A stretch of DNA of 64,000 bases from Pseudosulfitobacter sp. DSM 107133. Lineage in GTDB: Bacteria > Pseudomonadota > Alphaproteobacteria > Rhodobacterales > Rhodobacteraceae. Under the pieces are notes generated by a model. It searched no databases. It had not been told where the DNA came from and was given only the letters and a program-made list of their open reading frames with translations. The position numbers and the translations under genes were made by a program. The stretch covers positions 124,001 to 188,000 of the forward strand of contig NZ_CP085155.1 of assembly GCF_022788695.1 (NCBI RefSeq), given 5' to 3'. Below are positions 1 to 24,250 of the stretch, piece by piece (within the stretch, counting starts at the first letter, position 1; each line of letters starts with the position of its first letter).

Positions 1-34
1 CGGGATCGAGCTTAGCCGCGCCACGGGTCTGTGA
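1..34 (+). CDS. 3' end of an upstream coding sequence (partial)
   Basis: Reading from base 2, ten sense codons (GIELSRATGL) run to a TGA at 32-34. That TGA overlaps the ATG of the next gene in a TGATG arrangement, the same coupling style used throughout this locus. It is therefore probably the tail of a gene in the same operon as the caspase-like protein. Nothing can be said about its function from ten residues. Confidence 0.4.
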   Translation, partial: GIELSRATGL

Positions 35-1932
35 TGCTTCGGCTTGCGCTGCTTCTCGCGTTTTGGCTAACGGGCGCTGCGTGGGCCGAGACGCGTCTGG
101 CGTTGGTGATTGGCAATTCGACCTACACGCGGATCAGCGCGCTGGATAACCCGCGCAACGATGCGCTGGATATCTCGGTGGCGTTGGAGGGATTGGGCTT
201 TGACGTGATGCTGGAGATTGATGTCACGCGGGAACGGTTCGGGACATTGATCGAGACTTTTGGCACAAAGGCCGAAAGCGCGGATGTGGTCCTGCTGTAT
301 TATGCAGGTCACGGGTTTCAGGTGGACGGGCGCAACTATCTTGTGCCGACGGATGCCGCGATCGGGTCGGCGGCGGATGTGGCCTCGCAGACCATGCTTC
401 TGGACCGGCTTTTGCAGGTCATGGAGCGTTCGGACGGGGTAAAGCTGGTGTTTCTGGATGCCTGTCGCGACAATCCTTTTGGCACCGTCGTGGATGACCC
501 GCGTTTGGGCACCGGGCTGGCCCGTGTGGGGACGGCGGCGAATTTTCTGTTCTCCTACGCCACGCAGCCGGACAATGTGGCCTATGACGGCACCGGACGT
601 AACAGCTTTTTCACCGAAGCGGTGCTGCACCACATCTACACCCCCGGACAAGAGGTGGCGCAGATGATGATTGGCGTGCGGCGCGATGTGCTGGCGGCGA
701 CGGGGGGCAAGCAGATCCCGTGGGAAAACTCGTCGCTGACGCGCACGTTCCAGTTCAACACCAACCCCGAGACGATCTCGGAAGAGAGCATGCTTTACCA
801 GATCGCGGTGGACGAGCGTGACGGTGAACTTCTGGCGCTGTATCTTGATCGATATCCTGAGGGGGCCCATGCCCAGGAAGCACTGGCCTTTCTGGATACG
901 GGCACGCGGACGCGGGCGCTGGGGGCGGTGGACGAGGATGCCAGGGCGCAGCGCTGGTGGGAGCTTGCGCGACGCAGCCGGATGCGCCCGCTGCTTGAGC
1001 TTTATATCGAGCGCTACCCGGATGCGGACAACCGCGCAGAAGCGCAGCGGCTGCTCAGCAACCTGCCGCGTCCCGAGGATGCGGCACCGGGCAAGATTTG
1101 CGAGCGTCTGGCAACCCATCCCCGCGATGCCACGGCAGAAAATCGCGGTGTGCCCTTTTCGCGGCTGCAACAGAACGCATTTGCGGCCATTCAGGCGTGC
1201 AGTGCAGCCGCTTCGCGCCAGCCGGAGCTGCCCCATTACACGGCCCTTCTGGCGCGCGCGACTGCGGCATCGGGAGATCTGGAACGGGCGGTGGTCTTTT
1301 ACGTCAATGCGGCAGAGCGGGGTGATCTGCGTGCTATGGTCAGCCTTGCCCAATTGACCGAACGCGGCGCCGCTGTACCGCAGGACCCGGCGCGCGCGCT
1401 TGCGCTTTATGAACGTGCAGCACAGGGGGGAAGCCACGATGCGATGATCAATCTGGCGATCACCTTGCTGGAGACCGGCGCGGATCAGCCCCGCGCGCTG
1501 GCCTTGTTACAGCGCGCCTCGAACGAAGGGTCGGCCAAGGCAACCTTCAACCTTGGGGTTCTGGCGCAGGATGGCGTTGGCGCGGGCCCGGAAGAAGCAT
1601 TGGCCTATTTCCGCAAGGCGGCGCAGGACGGGGAGCCCGAGGGCTTTCGTGCGGCGGCAATCCTGCTGGACGAGGGACGCGGCGTGCCGCGTGATCCGCA
1701 GTCGGCCGCGATCATGTTGCTGCGCGGTGCAGCCGAAGACCGCGGAGAGGTTGTGCAACAGCTGAGCACAGACACAGACCAGTGGACGCCGCAGACCATC
1801 CGCGCGGTTCAGGGATTGCTTAAGGAGGCCGGATATTACACCGCGGCCATCGACGGCTTGCCCGGATCGAATTTCACCGCGGCGCTGGAGAAATGGCGCA
1901 ACGGCGGGTTCAAGCCTGCGGTTCTGCAATAG
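34..1932 (+). CDS. secreted caspase-like (peptidase C14) protein with Sel1 repeats and C-terminal peptidoglycan-binding-like domain
   Basis: An N-terminal signal peptide (hydrophobic to about residue 18, AAWAE cleavage region) is followed by a caspase-fold domain (about 20-240). The catalytic dyad is visible: His in YYAGHGF (about residue 93) and Cys in LDACRDNPF (about 144). The middle is helical with TPR-like pieces, followed by Sel1-type repeats (about 415-575, for example RGDLRAMVSLAQL and GSHDAMINLA). The last 40 residues (IRAVQGLLKEAGYY..IDGLPG) resemble a PG_binding_1 repeat. The protein is probably periplasmic and may bind the wall. It lies back to back with the T6SS kinase gene, so a role in the secretion locus is likely, but the substrate is unknown. 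ATG at 34 is preferred over GTG at 31 because it gives a TGATG overlap with the preceding frame. Confidence 0.85.
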   Translation: MLRLALLLAFWLTGAAWAETRLALVIGNSTYTRISALDNPRNDALDISVALEGLGFDVMLEIDVTRERFGTLIETFGTKAESADVVLLYYAGHGFQVDGRNYLVPTDAAIGSAADVASQTMLLDRLLQVMERSDGVKLVFLDACRDNPFGTVVDDPRLGTGLARVGTAANFLFSYATQPDNVAYDGTGRNSFFTEAVLHHIYTPGQEVAQMMIGVRRDVLAATGGKQIPWENSSLTRTFQFNTNPETISEESMLYQIAVDERDGELLALYLDRYPEGAHAQEALAFLDTGTRTRALGAVDEDARAQRWWELARRSRMRPLLELYIERYPDADNRAEAQRLLSNLPRPEDAAPGKICERLATHPRDATAENRGVPFSRLQQNAFAAIQACSAAASRQPELPHYTALLARATAASGDLERAVVFYVNAAERGDLRAMVSLAQLTERGAAVPQDPARALALYERAAQGGSHDAMINLAITLLETGADQPRALALLQRASNEGSAKATFNLGVLAQDGVGAGPEEALAYFRKAAQDGEPEGFRAAAILLDEGRGVPRDPQSAAIMLLRGAAEDRGEVVQQLSTDTDQWTPQTIRAVQGLLKEAGYYTAAIDGLPGSNFTAALEKWRNGGFKPAVLQ

Positions 1933-1942
1933 GCGCGCGGCC

Positions 1943-4018
1943 TTATTCCCGCGCGTCAATGATCCGTGCCGCAACGCCGATGATTTCCCCCTCGCGTCCC
2001 TCAAGTGTTTCCGAAAGCGCCTCGGCCAGCGATGTGACGCTTTCGGCGCGGGGCCGACGCAGGTCAAACAACGGGCTGCGCGAGAGGATCGCGAGCACTT
2101 CCGATTTGCCGTAATTGTCGGAATCCACCTCGATTGCCAGCCGCGAGGAGTCCTCGGCCAGGGCTTCGATCGGCCACAGCACACGCACCCGGCGCAGCCC
2201 GTTCGCCACCTCTCCCAGATTGTCGATCAGGTGTTCGGTCTGGTTGATGTTGGGCAGAATGTTGAACACTTTTCCGGTATTGTCGATCACCATGACCCAC
2301 AACGAAGCGCCGGTGATGGTGGCCGGCAGCTGAATGTCCACGACAGGGTTTTCGCCGGTGTGGTAGACGCCGGTCAGGGCCGCGTCGCCGCTGCTGCCCC
2401 GGCCCAGCCAGATTGACACCGCGCCCGGCGTCGACGGGGGCAGCACCGCGCGGATGGCGCAAAGGTCGGGGTTGAGCACGGTGGCTTCCAGCCGCAGATC
2501 ACGCTCGCCAATCATCGGCAGCAGGGCCGCGCGGGCGGCGTCGATGTCGCGGGCATTCGCAACATCGCCTGTGACAGTGACGGTGTCGAACATGGCAAAC
2601 TGACCGTCAGTGTCCCCCAGCACCTCCAGGGGGCCGCAGGTAGACTGCTCTCCCAATATGGCGGCCAGCGCGCCTGTGTTCAGTATCTCGGGGCCGGCAA
2701 GAACCTTTGATGTCAGCATCATGCCGCTGCGTGCGGCCCAATCGCGCAAGGCCCCGTTCATCGCGTCGCGCGTGGGCCTGTCGGGCGCCAGGGCAGTGAT
2801 CTGAACATCGGTGTCCGCAATGTCGATCTGCCAGTCGCTGAGCGGCTGCGCGAGGGTAAGCAGTTCGGCCACCTGCTCGGGCCATGCCGGATCGGGTTGA
2901 CCTGTGGCCAGGGTCACGGCGTCCGGCGGCGGGGTATTGCCCGTACTGCCGGCAAAGGCTGCACGCAGCAGATCTGCGCTGTCGGTATCGGGCGCATGGC
3001 CGGTCAGCACCTGCGGTGTCGCGGTCAACGTAAAAGGAGACACCAGCGGCAGCGCAGGTCTCATCAGGCTTTCAAACGCACCCGAGACAAAAGCGACCCC
3101 GCCCGCAACCACAAGCGCCACAGCGCCGATCACAAGGCCCTTGCCGCCCGATTTGCGCGCGCGCTTTGTCGTCGCCTTATGGCTGTCGGGCTTCAGCCAT
3201 CCATCCAGTACCTCCAGCGCGGCACGCGCTGTGGCGGGTCTGTCCTTTGGGTCCGGTGCGCTGAGCAAGGCGATCAGATCGCGCAGGGGGCTTTCGATGC
3301 CCGAGAGGTCCAGCGGTTCCTTCTTGAACCGGACGACCTCGCCGGGGTTGGTGCCTACATCCGGGACTTCGCGCCGCGCGACGGCCAGCAACGAGGCTCC
3401 AAGCGCATAAAGGTCGGTGCGAAAATCGGCGTGCCCGTCCAGTTGCTCGGGGGCGGCATATTCATATTTGCCCGCAAAATTCGTGCCCACGATGGTATGC
3501 GCCCCCGCAGCGGTATCTTTGGCGATGCCAAAGTCGATGATGGTCGCGCGCTCGGCCGCGCCGTCGCGCAGGATGATGTTGTCGGGTGACAGGTCACGGT
3601 GCACGATGCCTTGTGCATGGGTAGCCTCCAGCCCGCTCAGGACACGGTGCGCGATGATCAGCAGTTTCTGATCGCTCAGCCGCTGCTGGAACATCAGATC
3701 GCTCAGGGCGGTCCCGTCCACAAAATCCATGACCAGAAACACATGCCCCGCATCGGTCCGCGAGCATTCCGAATAGCGTACCACCGCGTCATGCACGATG
3801 TTGCGCATCTGTTCCTCGCGCTTCATCAGTTCGAGGTAATCGGCATTCCCGGAGAACCGCGCGTTAAGCGCTTTGATCGCAGAGAGCCGTTCGGTGATCT
3901 GGTTGACGGCAAGGTAGACTTCACCAGTGCCGCCTCGCCCGAGAATGGCCTTGATTTCATATGTATTATTAAGGACTTGCCCGGCTGCAAAAATGTCAGA
4001 AGGCCTTGGGTCGGTCAT
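1943..4018 (-). CDS. ppkA: PpkA-type membrane Ser/Thr protein kinase with periplasmic DUF4384-like domain
   Basis: The cytoplasmic N-terminus is a Hanks-type kinase: Gly-rich loop GRGGTGEV (27-34), Lys in SAIKAL (49), catalytic HRDLSPDN (140-147) and DFG (162-164). One transmembrane helix (about 294-314) leads to a periplasmic half of about 375 residues. This half contains a domain framed by two cysteines (C461, C520), followed by a DUF4384-like domain (about 531-640). In threonine phosphorylation pathways PpkA phosphorylates the FHA protein to switch T6SS on, opposed by PppA; both partners are encoded here. The periplasmic part is not the von Willebrand-type domain known from Pseudomonas PpkA. 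It instead resembles the TonB-like protein at 13892-15247, suggesting a common ligand or partner. The gene is divergent from clpV. Confidence 0.9.
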   Translation of the reverse strand: MTDPRPSDIFAAGQVLNNTYEIKAILGRGGTGEVYLAVNQITERLSAIKALNARFSGNADYLELMKREEQMRNIVHDAVVRYSECSRTDAGHVFLVMDFVDGTALSDLMFQQRLSDQKLLIIAHRVLSGLEATHAQGIVHRDLSPDNIILRDGAAERATIIDFGIAKDTAAGAHTIVGTNFAGKYEYAAPEQLDGHADFRTDLYALGASLLAVARREVPDVGTNPGEVVRFKKEPLDLSGIESPLRDLIALLSAPDPKDRPATARAALEVLDGWLKPDSHKATTKRARKSGGKGLVIGAVALVVAGGVAFVSGAFESLMRPALPLVSPFTLTATPQVLTGHAPDTDSADLLRAAFAGSTGNTPPPDAVTLATGQPDPAWPEQVAELLTLAQPLSDWQIDIADTDVQITALAPDRPTRDAMNGALRDWAARSGMMLTSKVLAGPEILNTGALAAILGEQSTCGPLEVLGDTDGQFAMFDTVTVTGDVANARDIDAARAALLPMIGERDLRLEATVLNPDLCAIRAVLPPSTPGAVSIWLGRGSSGDAALTGVYHTGENPVVDIQLPATITGASLWVMVIDNTGKVFNILPNINQTEHLIDNLGEVANGLRRVRVLWPIEALAEDSSRLAIEVDSDNYGKSEVLAILSRSPLFDLRRPRAESVTSLAEALSETLEGREGEIIGVAARIIDARE

Positions 4019-6894: not shown

Positions 6895-7992
6895 ATGGAA
6901 GTCTACAATCGCCCCGGATACCTGCACCAACATGCGACGGGTGTCGATGTTGCCGGGCGCGAGCATTTTACCTTCACGGTCAAGGGCAGCTTTGATTTTC
7001 CAACCCGCAGCGGGGCACCGATGACCCCAGCCGAGGTACACACGCCCTTTGTCTTTGCGGATCAGGCGACGGGCGAGCCCGGATTTTCAGCAACGTTGTG
7101 GGAAACGGATTTTGCCTTTCGAAAGCCGAAATGCGATGTCGTCCTGCAAGGGGTCGCCTATGTTCCCGGTGGCAAGAAAGCGACGCGCGTGCAGGTGGGG
7201 GTGCGCGTCGGCAGGTGGCAAAAAAGCTTTCATGTTGTGGGGCACCGCGAATGGCGCGTGTTGGGGCCATCGGTCCGCGCCACCGATCCTTATCCTTTCG
7301 TGCGCCAGCCCTTTGGCTATGACACGGCCTTTGGCGGCGTTGACAGGCTGAACCCCGACGATCCCAAGCCGCCGGCCTATATGGACAATCCGCACGGGCG
7401 CGGCTTTGCCTCTTTTCGCAATCAGGCGCAACTGTCGGGCCAGCCCTTGCCGCTGACCGAAGAGGTGTCCGAACCGGTGACATCGCCCTACGAGGATTAT
7501 CGTCCTATGGCATTGGGACCCATATGGCGGGGGCGGGGCGACAGATTGGTTCATGGGGGCACCTATGACGACAACTGGCTGGACACTGTTTTTCCCTTTC
7601 TGCCTGCGGATTTCGACGACCGGTATTACCAGCAGGTTGGCACCGACCAGCAAATCGACAAGCCGCAGCGTCCACTTGAGGTGACGCTGCTGAACCTGAC
7701 ACCTTCGGGACGCGAGGCGTTTAACCTTCCCGACCCGGCGCTGCCGTTGCAGTTGTTCCGGGGGGCGCAGACCGCCTTTGACGGGGTGCTTTTTCCCGAC
7801 ACATTGCTGTTCGATACAGAGGTGCGTCGGCTGTCGATGGTCTGGCGCGTGGATGTGCCGATCAAACGGCTTATCACCGAATTCACCGAGGCCTGGATCG
7901 GCACGCCGCCGCCGGGCCTGCTTCGCGCGCGGCAAAGCGGTAAGCGTTATATCAGGCCCGCAGCCAAACGCACCGAGGAGGAGGACGCTTGA
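6895..7992 (+). CDS. DUF2169 family T6SS adaptor-like protein
   Basis: The 365-residue protein matches the DUF2169 pattern (early FTFTVKGSFDFP, then RPFGYDTAFGG-like FVRQPFGYDTAFGG near residue 140 and PFLPADFDDRYY near 240). Proteins of this family are commonly encoded next to VgrG or DUF4150 (PAAR-like) proteins and are thought to act as loading adaptors for T6SS cargo. It starts 9 bases after clpV and its stop overlaps the next start (TTGA), so it is translationally coupled to the ketoacyl-synthase-like gene. The adaptor role is inferred from family and context. No enzymatic motif was seen. Confidence 0.85.
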   Translation: MEVYNRPGYLHQHATGVDVAGREHFTFTVKGSFDFPTRSGAPMTPAEVHTPFVFADQATGEPGFSATLWETDFAFRKPKCDVVLQGVAYVPGGKKATRVQVGVRVGRWQKSFHVVGHREWRVLGPSVRATDPYPFVRQPFGYDTAFGGVDRLNPDDPKPPAYMDNPHGRGFASFRNQAQLSGQPLPLTEEVSEPVTSPYEDYRPMALGPIWRGRGDRLVHGGTYDDNWLDTVFPFLPADFDDRYYQQVGTDQQIDKPQRPLEVTLLNLTPSGREAFNLPDPALPLQLFRGAQTAFDGVLFPDTLLFDTEVRRLSMVWRVDVPIKRLITEFTEAWIGTPPPGLLRARQSGKRYIRPAAKRTEEEDA

Positions 7993-9029
7993 GCAATACT
8001 GTCAACGTCATCGGTACGGGTATGGTAACAGCCGTCGGCCTGTCGGCAGCGGCGACGGCGGCGGCACTGCGCGCGGGCGTCGACGGCTTTGCCGAGACTC
8101 TGTTTCCGGGGCCGGGGGACGACTGGCTGATCGGGGCCGCAGTGCCACTGCCCCGCGCGTGGATCGGGGCAAAGCGTCTGGCCCATCTGGCGGCGGGGGC
8201 GATTGTCGACGCATTGGACGACCATCGGCACAGGGTTGCGGACCTGCAAATCATCCTGTGTCTGGCAGAAGAGACCCATCCCGGCACGCCGGTTCGTGAC
8301 CCGCAAACCTTCGGGCAAATGGTGTTGCGCTACGCTGGGCTGGCCGCCACCACCAAGCTGCATGTTGTCCGGCACGGGCGCCCCTCGGGGATCGTTGCAT
8401 TGGAACGCGTGCGGCGGATGTTCCAGCGCGGCGAGGCAGAGCACGCCCTGATCGTGGGGGTGGACAGTCTGCTGACGGCGTCAAGCATTGCCCATTATCA
8501 GCAGAACCAGCGGCTGTTGTGCAAAGGTGTCGCTAACGGTTTCATACCGGGTGAAGCCGCTGCCGCAATCCTGTGCGAGGCAGGCCCGCCCCGCCATTTT
8601 GCCCTTGGCGGTCTGGGGCTGACGCGCGAGCAGGCCTATCTGTATAATCCCGAAGATATCCCGTTGCGGGGCGAGGCGATGGCGCAAGCCTATCGCGATG
8701 CAATGAGCGCTGCCGGCTACACCGATTTCGGCCATATGGATTTCCGCGTCACCGATCTGACGGGCGAGGCCTATTTTTTCAAACAAAGTGCGCTGGCGAT
8801 GCAGCGCACGATGCGGATGCACCGCGAGGTGACGCCCATCTGGTCGCCAACCGATTGCATCGGCAACGTCGGTGCCGCGATTGTGCCGCTGATGGTAGGC
8901 TGGGCGCTTATCGCGTTCGAGCGGGGGTATCAGCCGGGCGCCGTGGTCCTGATCGAGGCAACAGGCGACACCGGCGCCTGTGGTGCAGCCGTTTTGCAAT
9001 CGGCACGACGTGAAAGGCAGGCCGCATGA
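7989..9029 (+). CDS. ketoacyl-synthase-fold (thiolase-like) protein lacking catalytic residues, T6SS cargo module
   Basis: The overall pattern is that of a beta-ketoacyl-ACP synthase, including VNVIGTGMVTAVG at the start and GFIPGEAAAAILCE near residue 185-198. The nucleophile elbow that normally carries the active-site Cys reads HGRPSGIVAL (about 128-138) with no Cys. The region expected to hold the catalytic His residues reads SPTDCIGNVGAA (about 288-299). It is therefore probably not an active condensing enzyme. Thiolase-like proteins of this kind recur between DUF2169 and DUF4150 genes in proteobacterial T6SS loci. The TTG start at 7989 overlaps the stop of the preceding gene, and the stop overlaps the next ATG (ATGA), giving strict coupling to the effector gene. 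Confidence 0.8.
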   Translation: MSNTVNVIGTGMVTAVGLSAAATAAALRAGVDGFAETLFPGPGDDWLIGAAVPLPRAWIGAKRLAHLAAGAIVDALDDHRHRVADLQIILCLAEETHPGTPVRDPQTFGQMVLRYAGLAATTKLHVVRHGRPSGIVALERVRRMFQRGEAEHALIVGVDSLLTASSIAHYQQNQRLLCKGVANGFIPGEAAAAILCEAGPPRHFALGGLGLTREQAYLYNPEDIPLRGEAMAQAYRDAMSAAGYTDFGHMDFRVTDLTGEAYFFKQSALAMQRTMRMHREVTPIWSPTDCIGNVGAAIVPLMVGWALIAFERGYQPGAVVLIEATGDTGACGAAVLQSARRERQAA

Positions 9030-11137: not shown

Positions 11138-11499
11138 GGGCCAGACCCGAAAGCGTTCAGGCGGCCCAATTTGTCGGTCAGATATTCGCGCACCTTGACC
11201 GGGTCGATATCCGCCATGGTCAGGTGCAGCGCCTCGGGTTGCAGCATCCGCAGTACAAACAATTCACCGGCTTCTGGAAAATCGGCAAAACGTTCCTCGG
11301 CAATGGCGCGCCCGTCGTCGCCTGCAATGCGCACCCCGTCAATGTGCGCATCCAGCCGTTCGATCAACCGTCCAAGGCGCTCGGCATCCATGTCCGGGTT
11401 GTCATCGGGGTTCAGCAGATGGAAGTCATATTGGCACCACAGATGCGCGGCCTCTTCCGCATGCTGACGCACGATATGCGTGAGGACCGGAACAGCCAT
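11134..11499 (-). CDS. short TIGR02270-like T6SS-associated protein (N-terminal part only)
   Basis: The 121 residues (VPVLTHIVRQHAEEAAHLW, then RLDAHIDGVRIAGDDGR and FPEAGELFVLRML) match the N-terminal section of the TIGR02270 family found in T6SS loci. As I recall, full members are about 400 residues and continue with HEAT-like repeats. Here translation stops soon after REYLTDKL. The stop falls inside the CTAG shared with the convergent gene, so this is either a natural short form or a truncated remnant. The ATG overlaps the stop of the DUF6484-like gene upstream (ATGA), so the pair is coupled and likely acts with VgrG or cargo. Its function is unknown. Confidence 0.65.
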   Translation of the reverse strand: MAVPVLTHIVRQHAEEAAHLWCQYDFHLLNPDDNPDMDAERLGRLIERLDAHIDGVRIAGDDGRAIAEERFADFPEAGELFVLRMLQPEALHLTMADIDPVKVREYLTDKLGRLNAFGSGP

Positions 11500-11918
11500 C
11501 AGTTCAGATTCACCGACCCGCCGCGAATGTGGTTGGCGCGCGAAGCGTGACTGACAAGGTTTTCGCCACGGATGGTGATGTGCCCGTCCTTGTCCATGAT
11601 GATCGCGGATTTTCCGACCCGCAATTCAATCCGTTTCTCGGCAAAGATCCGCACCGTTTCGCCATCGCGTTGAATGTGCGGGGTCGGCTGGCGGGCAGGT
11701 TCAACGATGCGGCCAATGATCAAGGGGCGCGTTCGGGCACCGTCTTCGAACAGCAGCGCCACTTCGCAACCGGCATCCTCGGCACTTAGCGCACAAAGCG
11801 CGCGCGCAGGCAGCGCGTGGTCCTCTGGGTTTGAGGGAAAGACGACCAGTGGTTTTTCATTCTCAAAGCCCAGAAACAGGCCGATCACAACACCGTCGAT
11901 CTGCTCGGCGACATCCAT
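11499..11918 (-). CDS. DUF6484-like T6SS spike-associated protein
   Basis: The 139-residue protein has an N-terminal OB-like segment (IDGVVIGLFLGFENEKPLV) followed by a short strand-rich tail (RIELRVGKSAIIMDKDGHIT, RGENLVSHASRANHIRGGSV). The tail resembles the C-terminal beta-helix of VgrG and gp5-type spikes. Proteins of this type occur beside T6SS spike genes and may modify or extend the tip. The start at 11918 is chosen because AGGAGA lies 5-6 bases upstream on the minus strand. The in-frame ATG at 11963 adds 15 non-conserved residues. The gene is coupled to the TIGR02270-like gene. Confidence 0.65.
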   Translation of the reverse strand: MDVAEQIDGVVIGLFLGFENEKPLVVFPSNPEDHALPARALCALSAEDAGCEVALLFEDGARTRPLIIGRIVEPARQPTPHIQRDGETVRIFAEKRIELRVGKSAIIMDKDGHITIRGENLVSHASRANHIRGGSVNLN

Positions 11919-12068
11919 GTGTTTCTCCTGAAATAAGCGCAATGAATAAACACAGTATCTCATGACTGGCGCGATTCACCAACAACGGGTTTCGCCCGAT
12001 CTCAAAAAACAGGCGGTGACGCGGCAGAATCACGCTAGGCTGACGGCGTTCAAACGAAAGGTGATTGC

Positions 12069-12485
12069 GTGAAACAACTTCTTCTTGCCGCCGCTGTGTT
12101 CTTGTTCAACCCGACCCACGTTCTTGCCCAGGATGGCACTCTGACAGTCGAGCTGAACAAGCTTGCACAGGAAGACGGAGCAGCCTGTCGCGCGTTTTTC
12201 CTGTTTCGCAATGATCTTGGGCGTTCGCTGGAAGCCTTCGAGATGTCACTGGCGATATTGGATCAGGACGGCATCATCGACCAGTTGCTGACCATTGATG
12301 CCGCACCAGTGCCCGTGGCACGCACAACGCTCAAGCTGTTCGAATTTCCCGATATTGCCTGCGCGGACATCTCTGAAATTCTGTTGCACGACATCGTAGC
12401 GTGTCGTCCTCAGAACGGCGAGGAGATGGCGTGTTTTGATGTATTGACGCTGACCAGCAAAGCCAGCGCGCGGTTGGTGAAATGA
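12069..12485 (+). CDS. small secreted protein leading the ExbB/ExbD operon
   Basis: The GTG start at 12069 follows an AAAGGTG ribosome site. The 138-residue product has a clear signal peptide (MKQLLLAAAVFLFNPTHVLAQ) and a mature domain of about 117 residues with three widely spaced cysteines (in GAACRAF, DIACAD and IVACRPQ, MACFD nearby). The pattern EAFEMSLAILDQDGII resembles Tat/Tol-pathway-associated small periplasmic proteins found before exbB-like genes, but I cannot name a family with certainty. The last bases overlap the ExbB start (ATGA), so it is the first cistron of the five-gene coupled unit ending at 15247. It probably acts with the proton-channel complex in the periplasm. Confidence 0.7.
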   Translation: MKQLLLAAAVFLFNPTHVLAQDGTLTVELNKLAQEDGAACRAFFLFRNDLGRSLEAFEMSLAILDQDGIIDQLLTIDAAPVPVARTTLKLFEFPDIACADISEILLHDIVACRPQNGEEMACFDVLTLTSKASARLVK

Positions 12486-13102
12486 GCATGTTTGCCGATC
12501 TGGGCACAGCCGGTCCCGTTCTGGCGCTGCTGGCGGTGTTGTCGGTGGTGTCGGTTGCGGTGTTTCTGGCACGCGTGCTGGCGCTGCGCCGCGTTACAGC
12601 CGGGCAAGAGGCCAGAGAGGCGTGGCTGGAGGCGATTGAGCAGGGCAGCGTCGCACCTTTTGCGGGCAATACGGCAACATATGCGGACAGGGTTGCAGCA
12701 CGCGCCAGCGCGCTGATGGCGCTGAATGCCGATCCCGAACATATGTCGTCCGACCTGATGCAGATGGGCAACCGCGCGGTTCTGGACATGGGGCGGGGCA
12801 TTCGTTTGCTTGAGCTGATCGGGATGATCGCGCCTTTGCTGGGTTTGCTTGGGACAGTGCTGGGGATGATCCAGTCATTCCACGCGCTGGAGCTTGCACA
12901 GGGTGCTGCGAATGCGTCCATTCTGGCGGGTGGCATCTGGCAGGCCTTGCTGACAACTGCGGCGGGGCTTGTTGTGGCGATACCGGCTGTCGTCGGTGCT
13001 GCGATTTTGCAGGCGCGGTCAGAGGCGGGCACGCAGGCCATGGAGCAGGTGATTGGCCGTGCGACATTGGCGCAAAGGCTGAACCGCAAGGACAAGGCCT
13101 GA
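12482..13102 (+). CDS. ExbB/TolQ/MotA-family proton channel subunit
   Basis: The 206-residue membrane protein has three predicted transmembrane helices (about 10-30, 110-135, 155-178). It carries the family core GMIAPLLGLLGTVLGMIQSF followed by GIWQALLTTAAGLVVAIPA. ExbB/TolQ proteins form the pentameric stator that conducts protons and drives the paired ExbD/TolR and an energised partner. The start overlaps the secreted-protein gene (ATGA) and the stop overlaps the first ExbD (TGATG). Its place inside a T6SS locus, with two ExbD genes and a TonB-like partner, implies a dedicated motor rather than general iron-uptake energisation. That role is inference. Confidence 0.9.
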   Translation: MSMFADLGTAGPVLALLAVLSVVSVAVFLARVLALRRVTAGQEAREAWLEAIEQGSVAPFAGNTATYADRVAARASALMALNADPEHMSSDLMQMGNRAVLDMGRGIRLLELIGMIAPLLGLLGTVLGMIQSFHALELAQGAANASILAGGIWQALLTTAAGLVVAIPAVVGAAILQARSEAGTQAMEQVIGRATLAQRLNRKDKA

Positions 13103-13494
13103 TGCTGGCCCGGACCGGATCAACCCGGCGCCGGGTAACGCTGGTGCCCTTGATCGACGTGCTTTTCATTCTGCTGGTCTATTTCATGGTGACATCCGTT
13201 TACCGCGATCTGGACATGATCCCCGTTGTGCGCGCGGCTTCGGTGGGGACGACACCGCAAGAGATTGCGGGCACGCCGCTGATGCTGCGCATTGACGCGC
13301 AAGGCAGGGTGGTGATGCGGGGGCAGAATTTCGCGGCGGCCGATCTGGCCGACATGGCGCTTGGCCCGTCGGTGCGCGTGCTTGTCCTGCCCTCCGGTGC
13401 GGCGCCGCTTTGGGCGCTGACGGATCTCATGGATGCGCTGAGTGCGTCCGGCGTCGAAGATGTCCGGCTGGTCCAGCTGGAGGGTCAGGAATGA
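13102..13494 (+). CDS. ExbD/TolR-family protein (first copy)
   Basis: The 130-residue protein has the ExbD layout: a short cytoplasmic N-terminus, one transmembrane helix (VTLVPLIDVLFILLVYFMV, about 12-32) carrying the conserved Asp of PLIDVLF that relays protons, and a periplasmic domain of about 95 residues ending in LMDALSASGVEDVRLV. It starts in a TGATG overlap with ExbB and its stop overlaps the second ExbD start (ATGA). Two successive ExbD genes suggest a heteromeric motor. Confidence 0.9.
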   Translation: MLARTGSTRRRVTLVPLIDVLFILLVYFMVTSVYRDLDMIPVVRAASVGTTPQEIAGTPLMLRIDAQGRVVMRGQNFAAADLADMALGPSVRVLVLPSGAAPLWALTDLMDALSASGVEDVRLVQLEGQE

Positions 13495-13895
13495 GACTGG
13501 CCCGTCCCGACCATCGCCCCGCCGCCGAGCCGATCATCGCGCTGATTGATGTGGTGTTTTTCCTGTTGGTGTTTTTCATGCTGGTGGCCCGTCTGGATGC
13601 GTCCGCCCCTTTTGAAGTGGTCCCTCCTGTTGCGCGCTCGGGACAGGACATGCCGGGGGGCGGCGTGACAGTATCTGTCGGGAAGGACGGCGGTTTGGCT
13701 GTGAACGGAGCCGCTGCCAGCAAGGGTCTCTGGCTGGACCTTGTGCGCCAGGCACAGGCGCGTGACCGCGCAACGCTGATCCGTATCAACGCACACCGCG
13801 ATGTGCCGTTGCACCACATTCTCCCCCTGATCAAGACATTGGAACAGGCGCGGTTGGGCGAGGTTGTACTGGTTGTCTCTCCGGATTCGTTATGA
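13491..13895 (+). CDS. ExbD/TolR-family protein (second copy)
   Basis: The 134-residue ExbD-type protein has a single helix with the proton-relay Asp (EPIIALIDVVFFLLVFFML) and a periplasmic domain with typical ExbD strands (GVTVSVGKDGGLAVNG, TLIRINAHRDVPLHHILPLI). ATG 13491 is used because it overlaps the stop of the first ExbD (ATGA). An upstream in-frame start at 13410 would lie entirely inside that gene. The stop in turn overlaps the TonB-like gene. The two ExbD copies differ strongly in their periplasmic parts, so they are probably not redundant. Confidence 0.9.
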   Translation: MRLARPDHRPAAEPIIALIDVVFFLLVFFMLVARLDASAPFEVVPPVARSGQDMPGGGVTVSVGKDGGLAVNGAAASKGLWLDLVRQAQARDRATLIRINAHRDVPLHHILPLIKTLEQARLGEVVLVVSPDSL

Positions 13896-15247
13896 AGGTC
13901 ACGGGGCTTTCTTTGCTGGGAATTGCCGGATCGATCGCGGTGCATCTTGCGGTGGCGGTGGCCGCTGTGCCGTTCCTGATGCCAAAGCCAATTCCGCAAC
14001 AACACTCCGGCGAAAGCCAACTGGCACTGGCTGCGATGCCGGTCAAACGCAGCCGCGCGGTTGAGCAGGCCCCGTCGCAAACAGTGGCCGAGGCTGCTCC
14101 AAGCGGAGGCACCCGTGCCGGTGGTCAACCGGTGCCGCGCACCCGTGCAAACCCTCAGCGGCTGTCCGGGCAGATGGCGGGGGCTATTCCTGTAGCGTCG
14201 GAACGGATGATGGCAAAGGAGCCGCAGCAAAATTTGCGCAGCGCATTGAAGCCATCGGGTGTGCGCGGTGAACCTGTAGCAGTCTTCGCAGACCCCACCG
14301 TGTCAGTGGAATTGGCAGCGCAAGCCGCGATACAGGTCCAAGACGCGCAACCCGTTGCGGCCCCGTCACCCGTCGGGACCACAACAGTTGTCCCGCGCTC
14401 GACAGAGCAGCCAGCCATCGCGCAAATGAAACCGCACCTGCCGCGGGTATCCGCTTCATTGGATTGGAGCGGTGCGGCGAATATGGCGCTGGATACGCAA
14501 AGCGTCGCGACATTGTCTGCTTTCCTCAGCCCTGGCACTGTCGCGCAACGCGACCTGCATGACCGGATGACACAGGTCATGGCCGCGCCGCCCTGCGCGC
14601 GTATCCAAACCATTTTTGATCCCGCGTCTGGTACTTTGGAATTGCGGGGTCATGTGCCGGAGCCAACACTTCGGGCACCTCTTCTGGCGGCATTGCAGGC
14701 GCAGGTGGGCACGGGTCTGCCGTTGCGTGATGCCTTGCGTATCTTGCCACATCCGCAGTGTGACCTGCTGGACGGAATCGCCACACTGGGCCTGCCACAG
14801 TCCGAGGAACAATTGACCGATCCCGATCTGGTCGGCGAGAACGCTCAGACCCGCGAATACAGTTTTGCCGAAGGCGACAGGCTGACCATCGCAATGGAAG
14901 CCCCCGACTATCCGGCCTATGTCTATGTCGATTATTTCGATGCGGCCGGGCAGGTGATCCACCTGCGGCCCAATGCGCAATCGCTTTTGCAATCCTTTGA
15001 TCCGGGACAAGCCTTCACCATCGGCGGTGCGGGGGATATCGACCTGCGCATCGCGCCCCCCTTCGGACAGGATATCGCGGTTGCATTCGCGGCCAGCGCA
15101 CCGCTTTACGAGGGTGTGCGCCCGCTGGTCGAACCTGCGGTGCCGTATCTTGATGCATTGCGTGCCATGATCGCCGAACGCCGCGCCACCGACCCCATGT
15201 TTCGGGGAGAATGGGTGTATGTGTTCGTCGAGACGCAGCCGCGCTGA
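13892..15247 (+). CDS. TonB-like single-pass protein with Cys-framed domain and DUF4384-like domain
   Basis: An N-terminal signal anchor (about 5-30, HLAVAVAAVPFLMPKP) is followed by a long Pro/Ala/Ser-rich linker (about 31-180), then a domain bounded by two cysteines (C235, C290; TLELRGHV and PLLAALQAQVG between). A DUF4384-like domain follows (about 315-430; PAYVYVDYFDAAGQVIHLRPN). Anchor plus extended linker plus terminal domain is the architecture of TonB/TolA energy transducers, and the gene closes the ExbB-ExbD-ExbD operon by ATGA coupling. The Cys-framed and DUF4384-like parts resemble the periplasmic half of the PpkA-type kinase. It may be the moving arm of the motor or a sensor partner of the kinase. 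No canonical TonB C-terminal domain was seen. Confidence 0.75.
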   Translation: MKVTGLSLLGIAGSIAVHLAVAVAAVPFLMPKPIPQQHSGESQLALAAMPVKRSRAVEQAPSQTVAEAAPSGGTRAGGQPVPRTRANPQRLSGQMAGAIPVASERMMAKEPQQNLRSALKPSGVRGEPVAVFADPTVSVELAAQAAIQVQDAQPVAAPSPVGTTTVVPRSTEQPAIAQMKPHLPRVSASLDWSGAANMALDTQSVATLSAFLSPGTVAQRDLHDRMTQVMAAPPCARIQTIFDPASGTLELRGHVPEPTLRAPLLAALQAQVGTGLPLRDALRILPHPQCDLLDGIATLGLPQSEEQLTDPDLVGENAQTREYSFAEGDRLTIAMEAPDYPAYVYVDYFDAAGQVIHLRPNAQSLLQSFDPGQAFTIGGAGDIDLRIAPPFGQDIAVAFAASAPLYEGVRPLVEPAVPYLDALRAMIAERRATDPMFRGEWVYVFVETQPR

Positions 15248-15363: not shown

Positions 15364-16500
15364 ATGAATTTTGATCGCCTCCTTGAGCCGCTTTCGGAAT
15401 CTTCGCCCTCCGGTGTCGAATTGCGACACGATCTGCGATTTCACGATCTGGAGAGGTTGACTGAACCGGCGGCGCGGGAATTTCGTCTGAATGACGACGG
15501 CACGCTCGGCGATGCCGCCCCAGATGTTGACTGGGATCATATCGTCAGCGAGGGCGAAGTGCTGGCCAGCGAAGGCCGTGACTTGCGGCTGCTCGTGTTG
15601 ATGATCCGGGCTGTCTACAACATAGACGGTTTTGGTGCCGTTGCCAGTGCGCTCGGGTTTTTGTCACAGACAATTGCCACGTTCTGGGACAGCCTGCATC
15701 CGGCCCTGCGCGACCGTGACGATCCGCAGGTCGCGGCCTTGCCGCGTCTGAACGCGCTGCGTCAATTGGAAAATGACGATTTTGGCTTGCTGGGCGATAT
15801 GCGCTTTGGCGTCGTGCTGAATCCGCGCGGCATCGGTCCGATCACCGGCGACGATCTGGCCGCCGCAAGCCGAAGCGATTTTGACATGCTCAACCGGGCC
15901 GCATCCGGCCTGAGCCAGGCCGAGAAAGACGCGCTTGTCGCAGCGCATGGGCAACGTGTGAACCGCGTAACGGCCGCGACCCGCGCAATGGCGGCCGAAG
16001 ATGCCGAAACGATGGCGCAACTGATCGCAGACATTCGTGCGTGCGAAGCGGGACTGACAGGCCTGAGCACCGCGGTGGCCGAAGCCGGAGGTTTTGGCGA
16101 TGCGTCCGGGTTCACGATGAAAGAGCTGGCCGAGTTCCTTGGAGAGATCCGCAAGACGCTGGAAGCAGCCGCCGGGGCGGATGCCGCGAATGCGCCCAAG
16201 GTCGAGGATAACCCCAGCGCCCCGGCACCTGCTGCTGCGGCGCAGGGCGCACCTGCCGCCGCAGCAGCCCCGGCGGCGGTGCCCGGCGCGATTGCTTCGC
16301 GCTCAGATGTTGAAAATGCGCTGGACCGGATCATCGCGTTCTACGAACGCACCGAACCCGGCAGCCCGATGCCACATCTGGCACGACGGATGCGGCGTAT
16401 GGTGTCGATGGATTTTCTGGAGCTGATGGAAGAAATCGCGCCTTCGGGGCTCAAGGAATTCCGTAACGTGGCGGGTGTAGACGCCGGGAGTAAAAAGTAA
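15364..16500 (+). CDS. tssA: T6SS assembly protein TssA (ImpA N-terminal family)
   Basis: The 378-residue protein begins with the ImpA-type domain (FDRLLEPLSESSPSGVELRHD, then DWDHIVSEGEVLASEGRDLRL and FWDSLHPALRD). An Ala/Pro-rich linker follows (about 275-305), and a helical C-terminal region ends with SPMPHLARRMRRMVSMDFLELM. TssA organises baseplate docking and sheath-tube polymerisation in the cytoplasm. It begins the main core operon tssA-tagF, which runs on the plus strand to 31460. A 116-base gap separates it from the Exb module and probably holds a promoter. The linker is rich in direct Ala-Pro repeats typical of flexible spacers. Confidence 0.93.
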   Translation: MNFDRLLEPLSESSPSGVELRHDLRFHDLERLTEPAAREFRLNDDGTLGDAAPDVDWDHIVSEGEVLASEGRDLRLLVLMIRAVYNIDGFGAVASALGFLSQTIATFWDSLHPALRDRDDPQVAALPRLNALRQLENDDFGLLGDMRFGVVLNPRGIGPITGDDLAAASRSDFDMLNRAASGLSQAEKDALVAAHGQRVNRVTAATRAMAAEDAETMAQLIADIRACEAGLTGLSTAVAEAGGFGDASGFTMKELAEFLGEIRKTLEAAAGADAANAPKVEDNPSAPAPAAAAQGAPAAAAAPAAVPGAIASRSDVENALDRIIAFYERTEPGSPMPHLARRMRRMVSMDFLELMEEIAPSGLKEFRNVAGVDAGSKK

Positions 16501-21723: not shown

Positions 21724-22742
21724 ACCCAGAGGATGCGGCGCGCATGGATTTCTTCGAGCTGCTGCGCCAGCTTGAAACCAAAGACCTGCGTTTTGGCCGC
21801 GCTGCGCGTGAACCTGCACGTTTGGGCCAAAGTGCGCGCCTGTCCTTTGCCGCCAGCGATGTGGCCGGCATGGTTCCCGGTGAACAGGGGCAAAAACCGC
21901 AGATCAATGTGAATGTGCTCGGGCTTGTCGGCCCGGAAGGGCCGATGCCGCTGCATATGACGCGCTGGATCATGGCGCGCCTGTCCAACCGCTGGTTTGC
22001 AGGTGACGACAGCGGGGCGACGGCGGATACATCCTTTCTGGATTTCATCAATCTGCTACAACACCGCATGATTGCGCTCTATTGGCGTGCCTGGGCCGAT
22101 GCCCGTCCCGAGATCAACATCGCCCACGGCGACGGGGGCCGCGTCACCGCCACGATGCGCGCGCTTGCCGGACAGGGTCTGCCCGGCACAACCACCGGCG
22201 ATATCCGGCTGGACGGGGCCAAGCTGCGCCATGCCACATCGCTGGTGATGGAAGCCCGCAGCCCCGAAAGACTGACGGCATTTCTGGAAACCGTGCTGGG
22301 CGTGCCTGTGACCCTGGCCGAATTTTCCGCACATTGGATGGACATCCCCGCGCATCTGCAAACCCGGCTTGGCCGGCAACACGCAGGGCTAGGCACAGGT
22401 GCCGTTGCGGGTTCGCGGGTGATTGACCGTCAAAGCCATGCGGAATTGCGGTTGGGGCCGCTGTCCCTTGCCCAGTTCCGCGCCTTTCTTGAGGACGCCG
22501 ATGCCTGGGGACGCCTGCGCCACGCGGTCGTTTTTGCAGCAGGCAAAGACATCAATTTCTCCTTGCGCCTGTTGCTCGCCAAGGGCGAGGTTCCTGCGGC
22601 GAAACTGGGGAGTTGCCAACTGGGGCGCACGACCTGGTTGGCGCCTGCCGAGGATGCAACGTCGGATGACCTGTGTTTTACAAACATCACCGAACCCTCC
22701 TCTGACCCGCTGTCCACTACACATGAAAGGGCCGCCGCATGA
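21687..22742 (+). CDS. tssG: T6SS baseplate protein TssG
   Basis: The 351-residue protein has the family pattern FFELLRQLETKDLRFGRAAREPARLG, VLGLVGPEGPMPLHMTRWIM and TLAEFSAHWMDIPA. It pairs with TssF in the baseplate wedge. ATG 21687 is selected because GGAGG (679-683 region, 5 bases upstream) precedes it. Longer in-frame starts back to 21516 lie inside tssF and add a non-conserved sequence. The stop overlaps the tagH start (ATGA). Confidence 0.95.
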   Translation: MADDDWHTRADLNPEDAARMDFFELLRQLETKDLRFGRAAREPARLGQSARLSFAASDVAGMVPGEQGQKPQINVNVLGLVGPEGPMPLHMTRWIMARLSNRWFAGDDSGATADTSFLDFINLLQHRMIALYWRAWADARPEINIAHGDGGRVTATMRALAGQGLPGTTTGDIRLDGAKLRHATSLVMEARSPERLTAFLETVLGVPVTLAEFSAHWMDIPAHLQTRLGRQHAGLGTGAVAGSRVIDRQSHAELRLGPLSLAQFRAFLEDADAWGRLRHAVVFAAGKDINFSLRLLLAKGEVPAAKLGSCQLGRTTWLAPAEDATSDDLCFTNITEPSSDPLSTTHERAAA

Positions 22743-24250
22743 GCCTGCGTTTCGTGATCGAATCCGCACCTTCACCGCAGGCTCAGACGGAATGGGTCTT
22801 TAGCGGCGGACAGCTTAGTATTGGACGCAGCACGGATGTCGACTGGCAAATTGATGACCCCAAGATGTTCATCTCGCGCAAGCATTGCGTGATCCATGAA
22901 GAGGGCGGGCAGATCGTGGTGACCGATACCTCCTCGGGCGGGCTTTATATTGATAATGCCGCAAATGCGGTCGGATTGGGCAATTCGGTGCCCATGACAC
23001 CGGGGATGCGCTTGCACATGGGGGATTTTACACTCCGCGTTGAAAATGCGACGGCGCCGACATCCGAGCCTGCGCCCCCGCAATCACCGTCCGAACGCAG
23101 CGGGTTTTTTCCGCCTCGCGAAAAGGCGGCCGAGCCGCCCGGGCCTGCGCCAGCGCGCCCTGCGGATTTGCCCGACCCGTTTGGTCTGCGCAGCGATGAT
23201 ATTCAGCCGTCACGCCAGAGAGAAGTTGAACGGCCACCAAGACCGCTGGATCAGACTGATCCATTCGGGCTCGACCTGCGCAAACCGGTTGTGGAAAAAC
23301 CGGCCACAGCGCAGCACAGCGACAAGCCATCGGGCGGGTATTTTGAACCAAGATCCCCTGCGCCAGAGTCGGCATCGCGCCCCCCACCACGGCCACCGGA
23401 AACCAAACCCGACATCTTTGGTGACTGGCGGCAGCCGCTCACCCCTGCGGCCCCGCCAGCCGAGCCGGAAAACAACGTGCCGGAGAACAACGTGCCGGAG
23501 AACACGGAGCCGGAGACTGACAGGGCGCCGCCTTCGGTTGCGCCGCGCGAGGTTGCCCAGGTGCCCGACGATGTGCCCACACCTGCGCCGACGTCCAGAG
23601 TGAACCCCGAACCTGCCGAGGCGCCCACCGACCCCGCGCCACAACAACCGGCTGCGCCGGTGTCACAGGCCGATGCGGATCTGCGGGACGCTCTTTTGCG
23701 GGGAATGGGTCTGGACCCGGCACAGATGAAAACGGACGATCCCGCCGCCGAGATGGCGCATGTGGGACGCGCAATGCGCGATCTTGTCGAAGGTGTCATG
23801 CTGCTGCTGCGCACGCGCGCGCAGGAAAAACAGAAGGTGCGTGTGGCCCAGACCATCATCGCCAGCGCCGACGTCAACCCGCTCAAGTTTCTTGCCACGC
23901 CCGAAGATGCTCTCAGCGCCCTGATCCGCCCGCGCGGCAAGGGCTATATGGCGCCCGAGGCGGCGGTACAGGGTGCATTCCGGGATCTGGCGGACCATCA
24001 GGTGCGCACCTGGAGCGCGCTTCAGGTCGCGTTGCGGCGCATGGTGGACAAGTTCGACCCTGCAGAAATCGCCAAAGAGATGGAAGATGTCGGCCTGCTG
24101 GAAAGCCTTGTCGCCGGCGGGCGCAGCGCAAAGCTCTGGCAGATTTACGAAGACAGATACCGCGATATAGCCCAAACTGCGGAGAAGCAGTTTCTTGGCG
24201 ATGTCGGGGTTGATTTCAGAGACGCATACGAAAACCAAAGGAGCGATTGA
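22739..24250 (+). CDS. tagH: FHA-domain T6SS regulator TagH/Fha1
   Basis: The N-terminal FHA domain (about 1-100) shows the phosphothreonine-binding motifs SIGRSTDVDWQI and FISRKHCVI. A very long proline-rich linker (about 105-300) contains a tandem PENNV repeat and recurring DPFGL motifs. The C-terminal TagH domain (about 310-503) includes VGRAMRDLVEGVMLLLRTRA, NPLKFLATPEDAL and KLWQIYEDRYRDI. Phosphorylated by PpkA and reset by PppA, Fha promotes assembly at the membrane complex. Both regulators are encoded at the ends of this locus. It is coupled to tssG by ATGA. Confidence 0.94.
   Translation: MSLRFVIESAPSPQAQTEWVFSGGQLSIGRSTDVDWQIDDPKMFISRKHCVIHEEGGQIVVTDTSSGGLYIDNAANAVGLGNSVPMTPGMRLHMGDFTLRVENATAPTSEPAPPQSPSERSGFFPPREKAAEPPGPAPARPADLPDPFGLRSDDIQPSRQREVERPPRPLDQTDPFGLDLRKPVVEKPATAQHSDKPSGGYFEPRSPAPESASRPPPRPPETKPDIFGDWRQPLTPAAPPAEPENNVPENNVPENTEPETDRAPPSVAPREVAQVPDDVPTPAPTSRVNPEPAEAPTDPAPQQPAAPVSQADADLRDALLRGMGLDPAQMKTDDPAAEMAHVGRAMRDLVEGVMLLLRTRAQEKQKVRVAQTIIASADVNPLKFLATPEDALSALIRPRGKGYMAPEAAVQGAFRDLADHQVRTWSALQVALRRMVDKFDPAEIAKEMEDVGLLESLVAGGRSAKLWQIYEDRYRDIAQTAEKQFLGDVGVDFRDAYENQRSD

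Follow-up and report, generated by a model that had tools for sequence, protein, structure and literature searches.

What does a predicted TonB-type proton motor do at a type VI secretion system (T6SS) locus? The question is raised by five overlapping genes in a 64,000-nucleotide stretch of contig NZ_CP085155.1 (forward-strand positions 124,001–188,000; hereafter the window) from the 5.2 Mb genome of Pseudosulfitobacter sp. DSM 107133, a member of the Rhodobacteraceae. The genes encode a secreted protein (P1), an ExbB-family protein, two ExbD proteins and a TonB-like anchored arm (P5). P5 is confined to T6SS-bearing genomes in our family sample, and profile comparisons indicate homology between its C-terminal region and the corresponding end, presumably periplasmic, of the PpkA-type kinase encoded at the same locus. 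We lean towards the view that the motor links proton motive force to PpkA and in this way controls T6SS firing.

The predicted motor operon and its arm with a PpkA-related end

The five genes, the regions of P5 and the kinase have the following window coordinates.

12069–12485, plus strand: P1, 138 amino acids from a GTG start, predicted to be secreted, no Pfam family
12482–13102, plus strand: ExbB/TolQ-family channel subunit, 206 amino acids, Pfam MotA_ExbB at 97.7 bits
13102–13494, plus strand: ExbD1, 130 amino acids, Pfam ExbD at 49.2 bits, membrane Asp19
13491–13895, plus strand: ExbD2, 134 amino acids from the ATG at 13491 (the open reading frame list offered a longer form from a TTG at 13410), Pfam ExbD at 66.9 bits, membrane Asp20
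13892–15247, plus strand: P5, TonB-like transducer arm, 451 amino acids, Pfam DUF4384 at 39.4 bits
13898–13978, plus strand: predicted membrane helix of P5 (residues 3–29), with the S14-x3-H18 motif of TonB/TolA-type anchors
14021–14041, plus strand: D-box-like stretch of P5 (residues 44–50), beta-like and at a fixed position
14633–15241, plus strand: C-terminal region of P5 (residues 248–450), weakly BON-like plus DUF4384, homologous to the PpkA C-terminal end
1943–4018, minus strand: PpkA-type kinase with an N-terminal Ser/Thr kinase domain and C-terminal residues 479–691 homologous to P5

Pfam matches and predictions agree with a preliminary description of this five-gene unit, in which every junction was said to overlap; the overlaps are 4, 1, 4 and 4 bases, in the order P1/ExbB/ExbD1/ExbD2/P5. 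Judging from alignments, the motor residues of ExbB and ExbD are intact. ExbB residues T125, T158 and T159 are invariant in 22/22 aligned rows, and the ExbB profile retrieves the solved ExbB 5sv0 at E 2.3e-17. The membrane aspartate is invariant in all 30 ExbD rows, with ExbD1 Asp19 and ExbD2 Asp20 occupying one alignment column, and conserved stretches of both families align with the sequences of solved ExbB/ExbD structures. The operon thus has two features of TonB systems, an ExbB-family subunit and an ExbD with a membrane-embedded aspartate. P1 is predicted to fold as a beta-sandwich and has four cysteines that are invariant across 25 aligned rows.

P5 has the predicted layout of a transducer arm: a single membrane helix is followed by a disordered linker rich in Pro and Ala and then by a folded C-terminal region (about residues 200–451). 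A third TonB-system feature, the S-x3-H anchor motif, is present in 25 of 26 P5 proteins; passages of PMC10907165 and PMC12204202 describe an SHLS motif, of which S-x3-H is a part, through which TonB and TolA attach to their motors. The DUF4384 domain that the preliminary description had placed in a head is indeed present, but at the C-terminal end (residues 325–402). A BON-like match falls under the cut-off (13.7 versus 24.1 bits), and the BON-like family is assigned in some relatives. The receptor-docking domain of TonB is absent: P5 has no TonB_C or TonB_2 match in Pfam at E 0.1.

The domain that P5 carries at this end is related to that of the kinase. P5 residues 248–450 align to PpkA residues 479–691 with an hhalign E value of 3e-21, part of which is owed to the kinase of one genome (G122) in the profile; without that kinase, the match stands at E 1e-11 with five kinases and at 97.5% and E 6e-12 with nine. 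Among the matches listed for the P5 C-terminus are proteins of three Azospirillum plasmids that are annotated as serine/threonine kinases (E 2e-8 to 3e-8).

The G122 kinase itself (L065:4207–6237) has a P5-type DUF4384 end in place of the usual PpkA end (38% identity, E 2e-45). This case suggests that domains may have been exchanged between arm and kinase.

PpkA is likely the T6SS trigger kinase. The parts of PMC6082577 and PMC12607579 consulted report that PpkA phosphorylates Fha to initiate assembly, and that its periplasmic domain differs between Serratia and Pseudomonas and is the input site for RtkS in Serratia and TssW in Acidovorax. With a C-terminal domain of the kinase's type, the P5 arm is well placed to act as a PpkA input.

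Association with T6SS and pairing of arm and kinase

We surveyed 295 genomes, one per genus, from a family that is Rhodobacteraceae-like as judged from named relatives. TssC, our marker of a T6SS, is present in 72 and leaves 223 genomes without T6SS. P5 was matched in 34 genomes, from which we dropped G213 (a weak match at E 2.6e-4, with no TssC) and G122 (really the kinase), leaving 32. P5 is thus found in 32/72 T6SS genomes and, with the weak G213 match dropped, in 0/223 genomes without T6SS (Fisher p=4e-23). The preliminary description had allowed that the unit might occur equally often away from T6SS in related genomes; within the family it does not.

Of 31 relatives with a true P5 match, 28 have the full gene order, one of them (locus L066) with P5 running past the contig edge; in the remaining 3, the order is interrupted by contig ends. 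Counting the window, 29 of 32 P5 genomes have the complete order, and this conservation excludes chance as the origin of the gene order. In a set of named relatives (the best 80 of 162, biased toward close kin), a 4-base overlap is kept at the last two junctions only (56/60 loci with fully labelled order), and the first two junctions are mostly short gaps. A T6SS core match lies inside the fetched stretch of 72 of these 80, with L144 having only a ClpV-like one. Complete P5 units adjoin other T6SS genes in 25 of 29 cases, window counted. Together, these observations tie the five-gene unit strongly to T6SS within the family.

The unit is also tied to the kinase. PpkA with a P5-homologous end is encoded in 32/32 P5 genomes versus 14/40 other T6SS genomes (p=1e-9), the 14 consisting of 12 strong matches, a weak partial match in G022 and the G122 kinase. 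We do not rely on a clade-restricted variant (32/32 versus 12/18, p=0.001), which takes G122 into the clade and omits G022. Dependence in the sample is one-way: the motor occurs only alongside the kinase, and the kinase also occurs without the motor.

A second type of unit has the same layout. A P1 search that covered G122, G213 and 39 T6SS genomes lacking P5 identified P1-ExbB-ExbD-ExbD-arm units (type II) in 16 of the 39; among the 32 P5 genomes, the search for further P1 copies covered the window genome only. Reading 21 survey loci gave these 16 full units, four genes in G159, P1 with a caspase-like gene in G121 and G273, and loci in G088 and G188 that appear TonB-like by eye. A type II arm profile run on 69 of the 223 genomes without T6SS gave one match, a contig-edge open reading frame in G028 with a VgrG-like neighbor by eye. 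A convergent PpkA-type kinase gene follows the type II unit in 13/16 cases (within 0.13 kb in 11, at 0.75 and 1.8 kb in two), and TagF, TssM or TssL lies within the stretch of 11/16. In G026, G175 and G240 (loci L295, L297 and L293), type II motor, kinase and a caspase-like gene form one block, as if a portable pair.

Arms and kinases match by type. In profile comparisons, the type II arm matches its own kinase at E 5e-20 and 1e-21 and P5 only weakly (E 8e-5). Comparing arms with the kinase of the other type yields E 0.08 and 0.005; between the two types of kinase end, the match is at E 5.5e-6 or 3e-5. When single arms were scored, with the G122 kinase excluded from the profile, 42/42 scored higher against the kinase-end profile of their own type. 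Type I arms (26/26, six of which are database proteins whose genomic context was not seen) scored 11.3–44.7 bits against their own kinase type versus at most 3.8 against the other, and type II arms (16/16) scored 34.8–96.2 versus at most 10.7 bits. A tree of P1, ExbB and both ExbDs places the types on different TonB-type branches, and a joint clade was rejected in this quick tree (AU p=0.004). Type-specific matching of arm to kinase, combined with separate motor branches, points to two recruitments: on two occasions, it appears, a TonB motor came to be paired with a T6SS kinase.

This pairing bears on a different reading, in which one envelope ligand is sensed through a domain common to P5 and PpkA and the motor serves Tol-like envelope maintenance during the cell's own firing or incoming attack, with no signalling to PpkA. 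No kinase-specific role is known for BON-like or DUF4384 domains, and the operon descends from Ton-type motors. However, neither the 42/42 pairing nor a kinase beside 13/16 type II units is expected of a general device. The unit resembles Tol-Pal in motor superfamily and arm architecture, but no TolB or Pal gene lies in the unit or its neighbors, and the window genome seems to retain a separate TolQ-TolR-TolA-like run (L001; named from layout and open reading frame starts, with no family search). We consider envelope maintenance quite unlikely.

Origin and spread of the unit

The same gene order occurs in operons that end in TonB. P1-ExbB-ExbD-ExbD followed by a Pfam-verified TonB is found at five loci outside the family (L171, L172, L183, L190 and L191), and inside the family in a second operon of G294 (L198). 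L175 and L189 have a similar TonB-ending order in which a single ExbD was called, and at L176 and L184, P1 lies a few kb away from an ExbB-ExbD-ExbD-TonB run; at L193, the open reading frame after ExbD2 has no Pfam match. The window genome itself encodes, elsewhere, ExbB, two ExbD-like open reading frames and a TonB_C protein in a row (named from their order and open reading frame starts). The T6SS unit is thus most readily understood as a TonB operon with an altered arm.

P1 relatives occur across the class in 35/385 genomes, 11 of which also have TssC. Outside the family, P1 is not associated with T6SS (9/33, p=0.15), and P1 is likely a periplasmic partner inherited from the parent TonB-type operon. 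A dedicated T6SS proton machine, as proposed in the preliminary description, is supported by the distribution and placement of P5 units; the idea that the module as such arose with T6SS is not.

In another reading, the unit is a specialized TonB system for the import of a metal carrier or other cargo released by T6SS. Its relatives do end in TonB_C proteins, and at L184 a TonB-dependent receptor gene adjoins the operon. P5 itself, however, lacks the docking domain, the genome encodes TonB_C proteins at two places outside the unit, and a scan of 28 genes within the first 36 kb of the window found no TonB-dependent receptor. Import is very improbable. Compared with TonB-ExbB-ExbD, the unit shares ExbB/ExbD homology, the membrane aspartate, the S-x3-H helix, a Pro-rich linker and gene order; it differs in its missing TonB C-terminal domain, its PpkA-type DUF4384 end, the absence of a receptor among the scanned window genes and its restriction to T6SS genomes of the sample.

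In the window, the unit is flanked by a DUF6484 gene, with a Tox-PAAR-like gene beyond it, and by tssA, as the preliminary description had it in placing the unit between the effector module and tssA.

11499–11963, minus strand: DUF6484 gene (Pfam), upstream flank of the five-gene unit
15364–16500, plus strand: tssA (Pfam), downstream flank and first gene of the T6SS core run
22739–24250, plus strand: Fha, with FHA and T6SS_FHA_C domains, a likely PpkA target by homology

The T6SS locus of the window comprises tssABC, hcp, tssEFG, fha, tssJKLM, tagF and the PpkA-type kinase gene. The unit is an accessory to this machinery, not a core T6SS energizer, since 40/72 T6SS genomes, including the nearest T6SS kin of the window, lack the P5 type. 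The P5 profile, run on 39 of these 40, gave three weak matches, all kinases; the fortieth is G122. A core component would be present in essentially every T6SS of the lineage, whereas type I is found in 32/72 T6SS genomes. Five genomes with TssC 86–91% identical to that of the window have no P5 (G088 and G009 are 99% complete, the other three 76–85%). In G009, a gap of merely 153 bases separates the DUF6484 gene from tssA, leaving an empty site where the window has five genes. A complete unit of one or other type was found in 48/72 T6SS genomes and no such unit in the other 24, of which G159, G121 and G273 have parts only; the loci of P1 matches in G056, G118, G219 and G221 (among the 24) and in G213 were not read.

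The unit also seems to have moved. On a TssC tree of 30 P5 and 30 other genomes, the window T6SS belongs to a deep, separate clade with P5 in 2/7 rows; a long branch nearby leaves its exact placement unsure. The motor unit of the window nests, however, within units of the other T6SS clade (SH-aLRT 96). It thus seems from these trees that the unit was transferred between distant T6SS lineages and landed again beside tssA, in the opposite orientation.

Could the unit be a passenger, traveling with T6SS loci by linkage and having no T6SS function? A patchy distribution and the empty site in G009 are what one would see in that case. A repeated landing beside tssA is not expected of a passenger, though not impossible; moreover, units unlinked to T6SS loci are still confined to T6SS genomes, and kinases are matched in two unit types. 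We regard a passenger as very improbable.

Several other genes were observed at these loci. Many relatives with either unit type have a gene with a caspase domain (Peptidase_C14) close to the motor unit or to PpkA (for example at window positions 31–1932, L280:2199–3707 and L052:3956–5428), and such genes sometimes bear Sel1 or peptidoglycan-binding domains. The window encodes a second DotU plus IcmF protein, a TssL/TssM-like hybrid (33882–36320, minus strand), besides normal tssL and tssM, and a ketoacyl-synthase-like gene (7989–9029) that, within the effector module, separates the DUF2169 gene from the Tox-PAAR-like gene. In G092, a 1712-amino-acid protein (L246:4202–9340, minus strand; the only giant scanned) combines two VipA (TssB) stretches with a VipB (TssC) domain near its C-terminus, a fused sheath-like protein encoded about 15 kb from a normal tssC. 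Second, weak VipB matches occur in open reading frames of 981–1,781 amino acids in 24 genomes.

A possible proton-powered input to PpkA

How might the motor reach the kinase? By homology, ExbB and the ExbD1/ExbD2 pair would form the channel, to which P5 would be held by its S-x3-H helix and D-box-like strand. Proton flow would then move or tension the P5 arm across the periplasm. The P5 head could meet the PpkA head, or compete with it for a shared periplasmic or outer-membrane ligand, and PpkA clustering and Fha phosphorylation would change as a result. Firing would thus depend on proton motive force and envelope state. Motor–kinase contact is something we infer from the shared domain, as is each step beyond domain homology. 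A fuller account is tentative, though quite possible: a TonB nutrient-uptake motor would have been re-aimed at a T6SS twice, independently, its receptor-docking head swapped for the periplasmic head of the kinase belonging to that T6SS, and the motor arm would read the energized state or envelope tension and relay it to PpkA.

Several observations weigh against a motor that signals to PpkA. First, the homology of type I arms rests on profiles: the window's own P5–PpkA pair is weak (BLASTP E 0.010–0.024), E values of other pairs from one locus span 0.013 to 2e-7, and a shared domain is compatible with a common ligand alone. Second, the anchoring features vary. The strict hydrophobic/hydrophilic pattern of the D-box is found in 6/26 P5 proteins, which do not include the window copy, and a script matched S-x3-H at the expected place in 10/16 type II arms. 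Third, the parts are separable. The kinase type occurs without P5 in the 14 T6SS genomes noted above and is to that extent independent of the motor; no ExbB was detected in the stretch at 19/36 P1 loci across the class, so P1 also exists apart from the motor. Finally, linkage to T6SS is incomplete. Four of the 29 complete P5 units (G094, G206, G093 and G037) lie away from T6SS core genes, the G037 unit having only PpkA and a caspase-like gene nearby, and at L293, L295 and L297 no tss gene accompanies the type II unit and its kinase within the stretch read. To these can be added the 24 T6SS genomes without a complete unit and the patchiness of P5 on the TssC tree (11 changes, at least six of them forced, yet clustered versus shuffles).

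The motor might instead act mechanically on the T6SS envelope complex, with P5 pulling or opening the TssJLM channel or local cell wall, and the P5 and PpkA heads being alike through a common membrane-complex partner. Units adjoin tssA or lie near TagF/TssM, and the parts of PMC12607579 consulted report that Acidovorax TssW, which binds PpkA, also binds TssM. There is also a precedent in GldLM, a proton motor dedicated to the type IX secretion system, which it powers, according to the parts of PMC8986121 consulted. The same parts describe GldLM as required for secretion and in contact with outer-membrane-associated proteins, unlike the accessory T6SS unit, which we liken to it by role and not by sequence. 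The apparatus seems not to need the motor, as 24/72 T6SS genomes have no complete unit and the nearest T6SS kin lack it. In addition, comparisons with Pfam and kinase profiles found no link of P5 to a TssJ, TssL or TssM domain; the domain that P5 matches is that of the kinase. We consider this mechanical role unlikely. The preliminary description had suggested that the motor moves or energises the envelope complex, its wall passage or the loading of cargo; the domain shared by arm and PpkA in two unit types, apparently recruited separately, points away from these and toward the PpkA signalling branch.

Other proton motors serve special clients. The parts of PMC12204202 consulted cover AglRQS, SiiAB and the vWA force transducers, the last a recent example of a transducer whose head is new; the text of that paper mentions neither T6SS nor a kinase. 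Conversely, inputs to PpkA are known: in the consulted parts of PMC6082577 and PMC12607579, TagQRST/TagR, RtkS and TssW act on the PpkA periplasmic domain, which varies by species, and no proton-powered mode of action is mentioned there for any of them. The partner we propose differs from these in being a motor arm equipped with a domain of the kinase itself.

The preliminary description knew of no function for such a T6SS module, and we likewise found no account of one in the open-access literature searched. Among the top listings, including those on T6SS in Rhodobacterales, no description combines a T6SS module with ExbB/ExbD/TonB, with DUF4384 or as PpkA-ExbB, and we found no open-access paper that treats DUF4384 and type VI secretion together. 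ExbB and TonB do not appear in the text of PMC9113992 and PMC7989816, which concern T6SS in, or including, the family. The kind of motor is known; its head and client are new.

These findings bear on the way in which signals of damage or contact reach PpkA-type kinases across the envelope. They add a new head type to the TonB/TolA force transducers and a change of client by domain swap. A force-generating motor that carries the sensor's own domain, in two apparently separate recruitments, points to a mechanical or energetic input to T6SS firing. If the proposed coupling is true, T6SS firing in these bacteria would have a proton-powered trigger.

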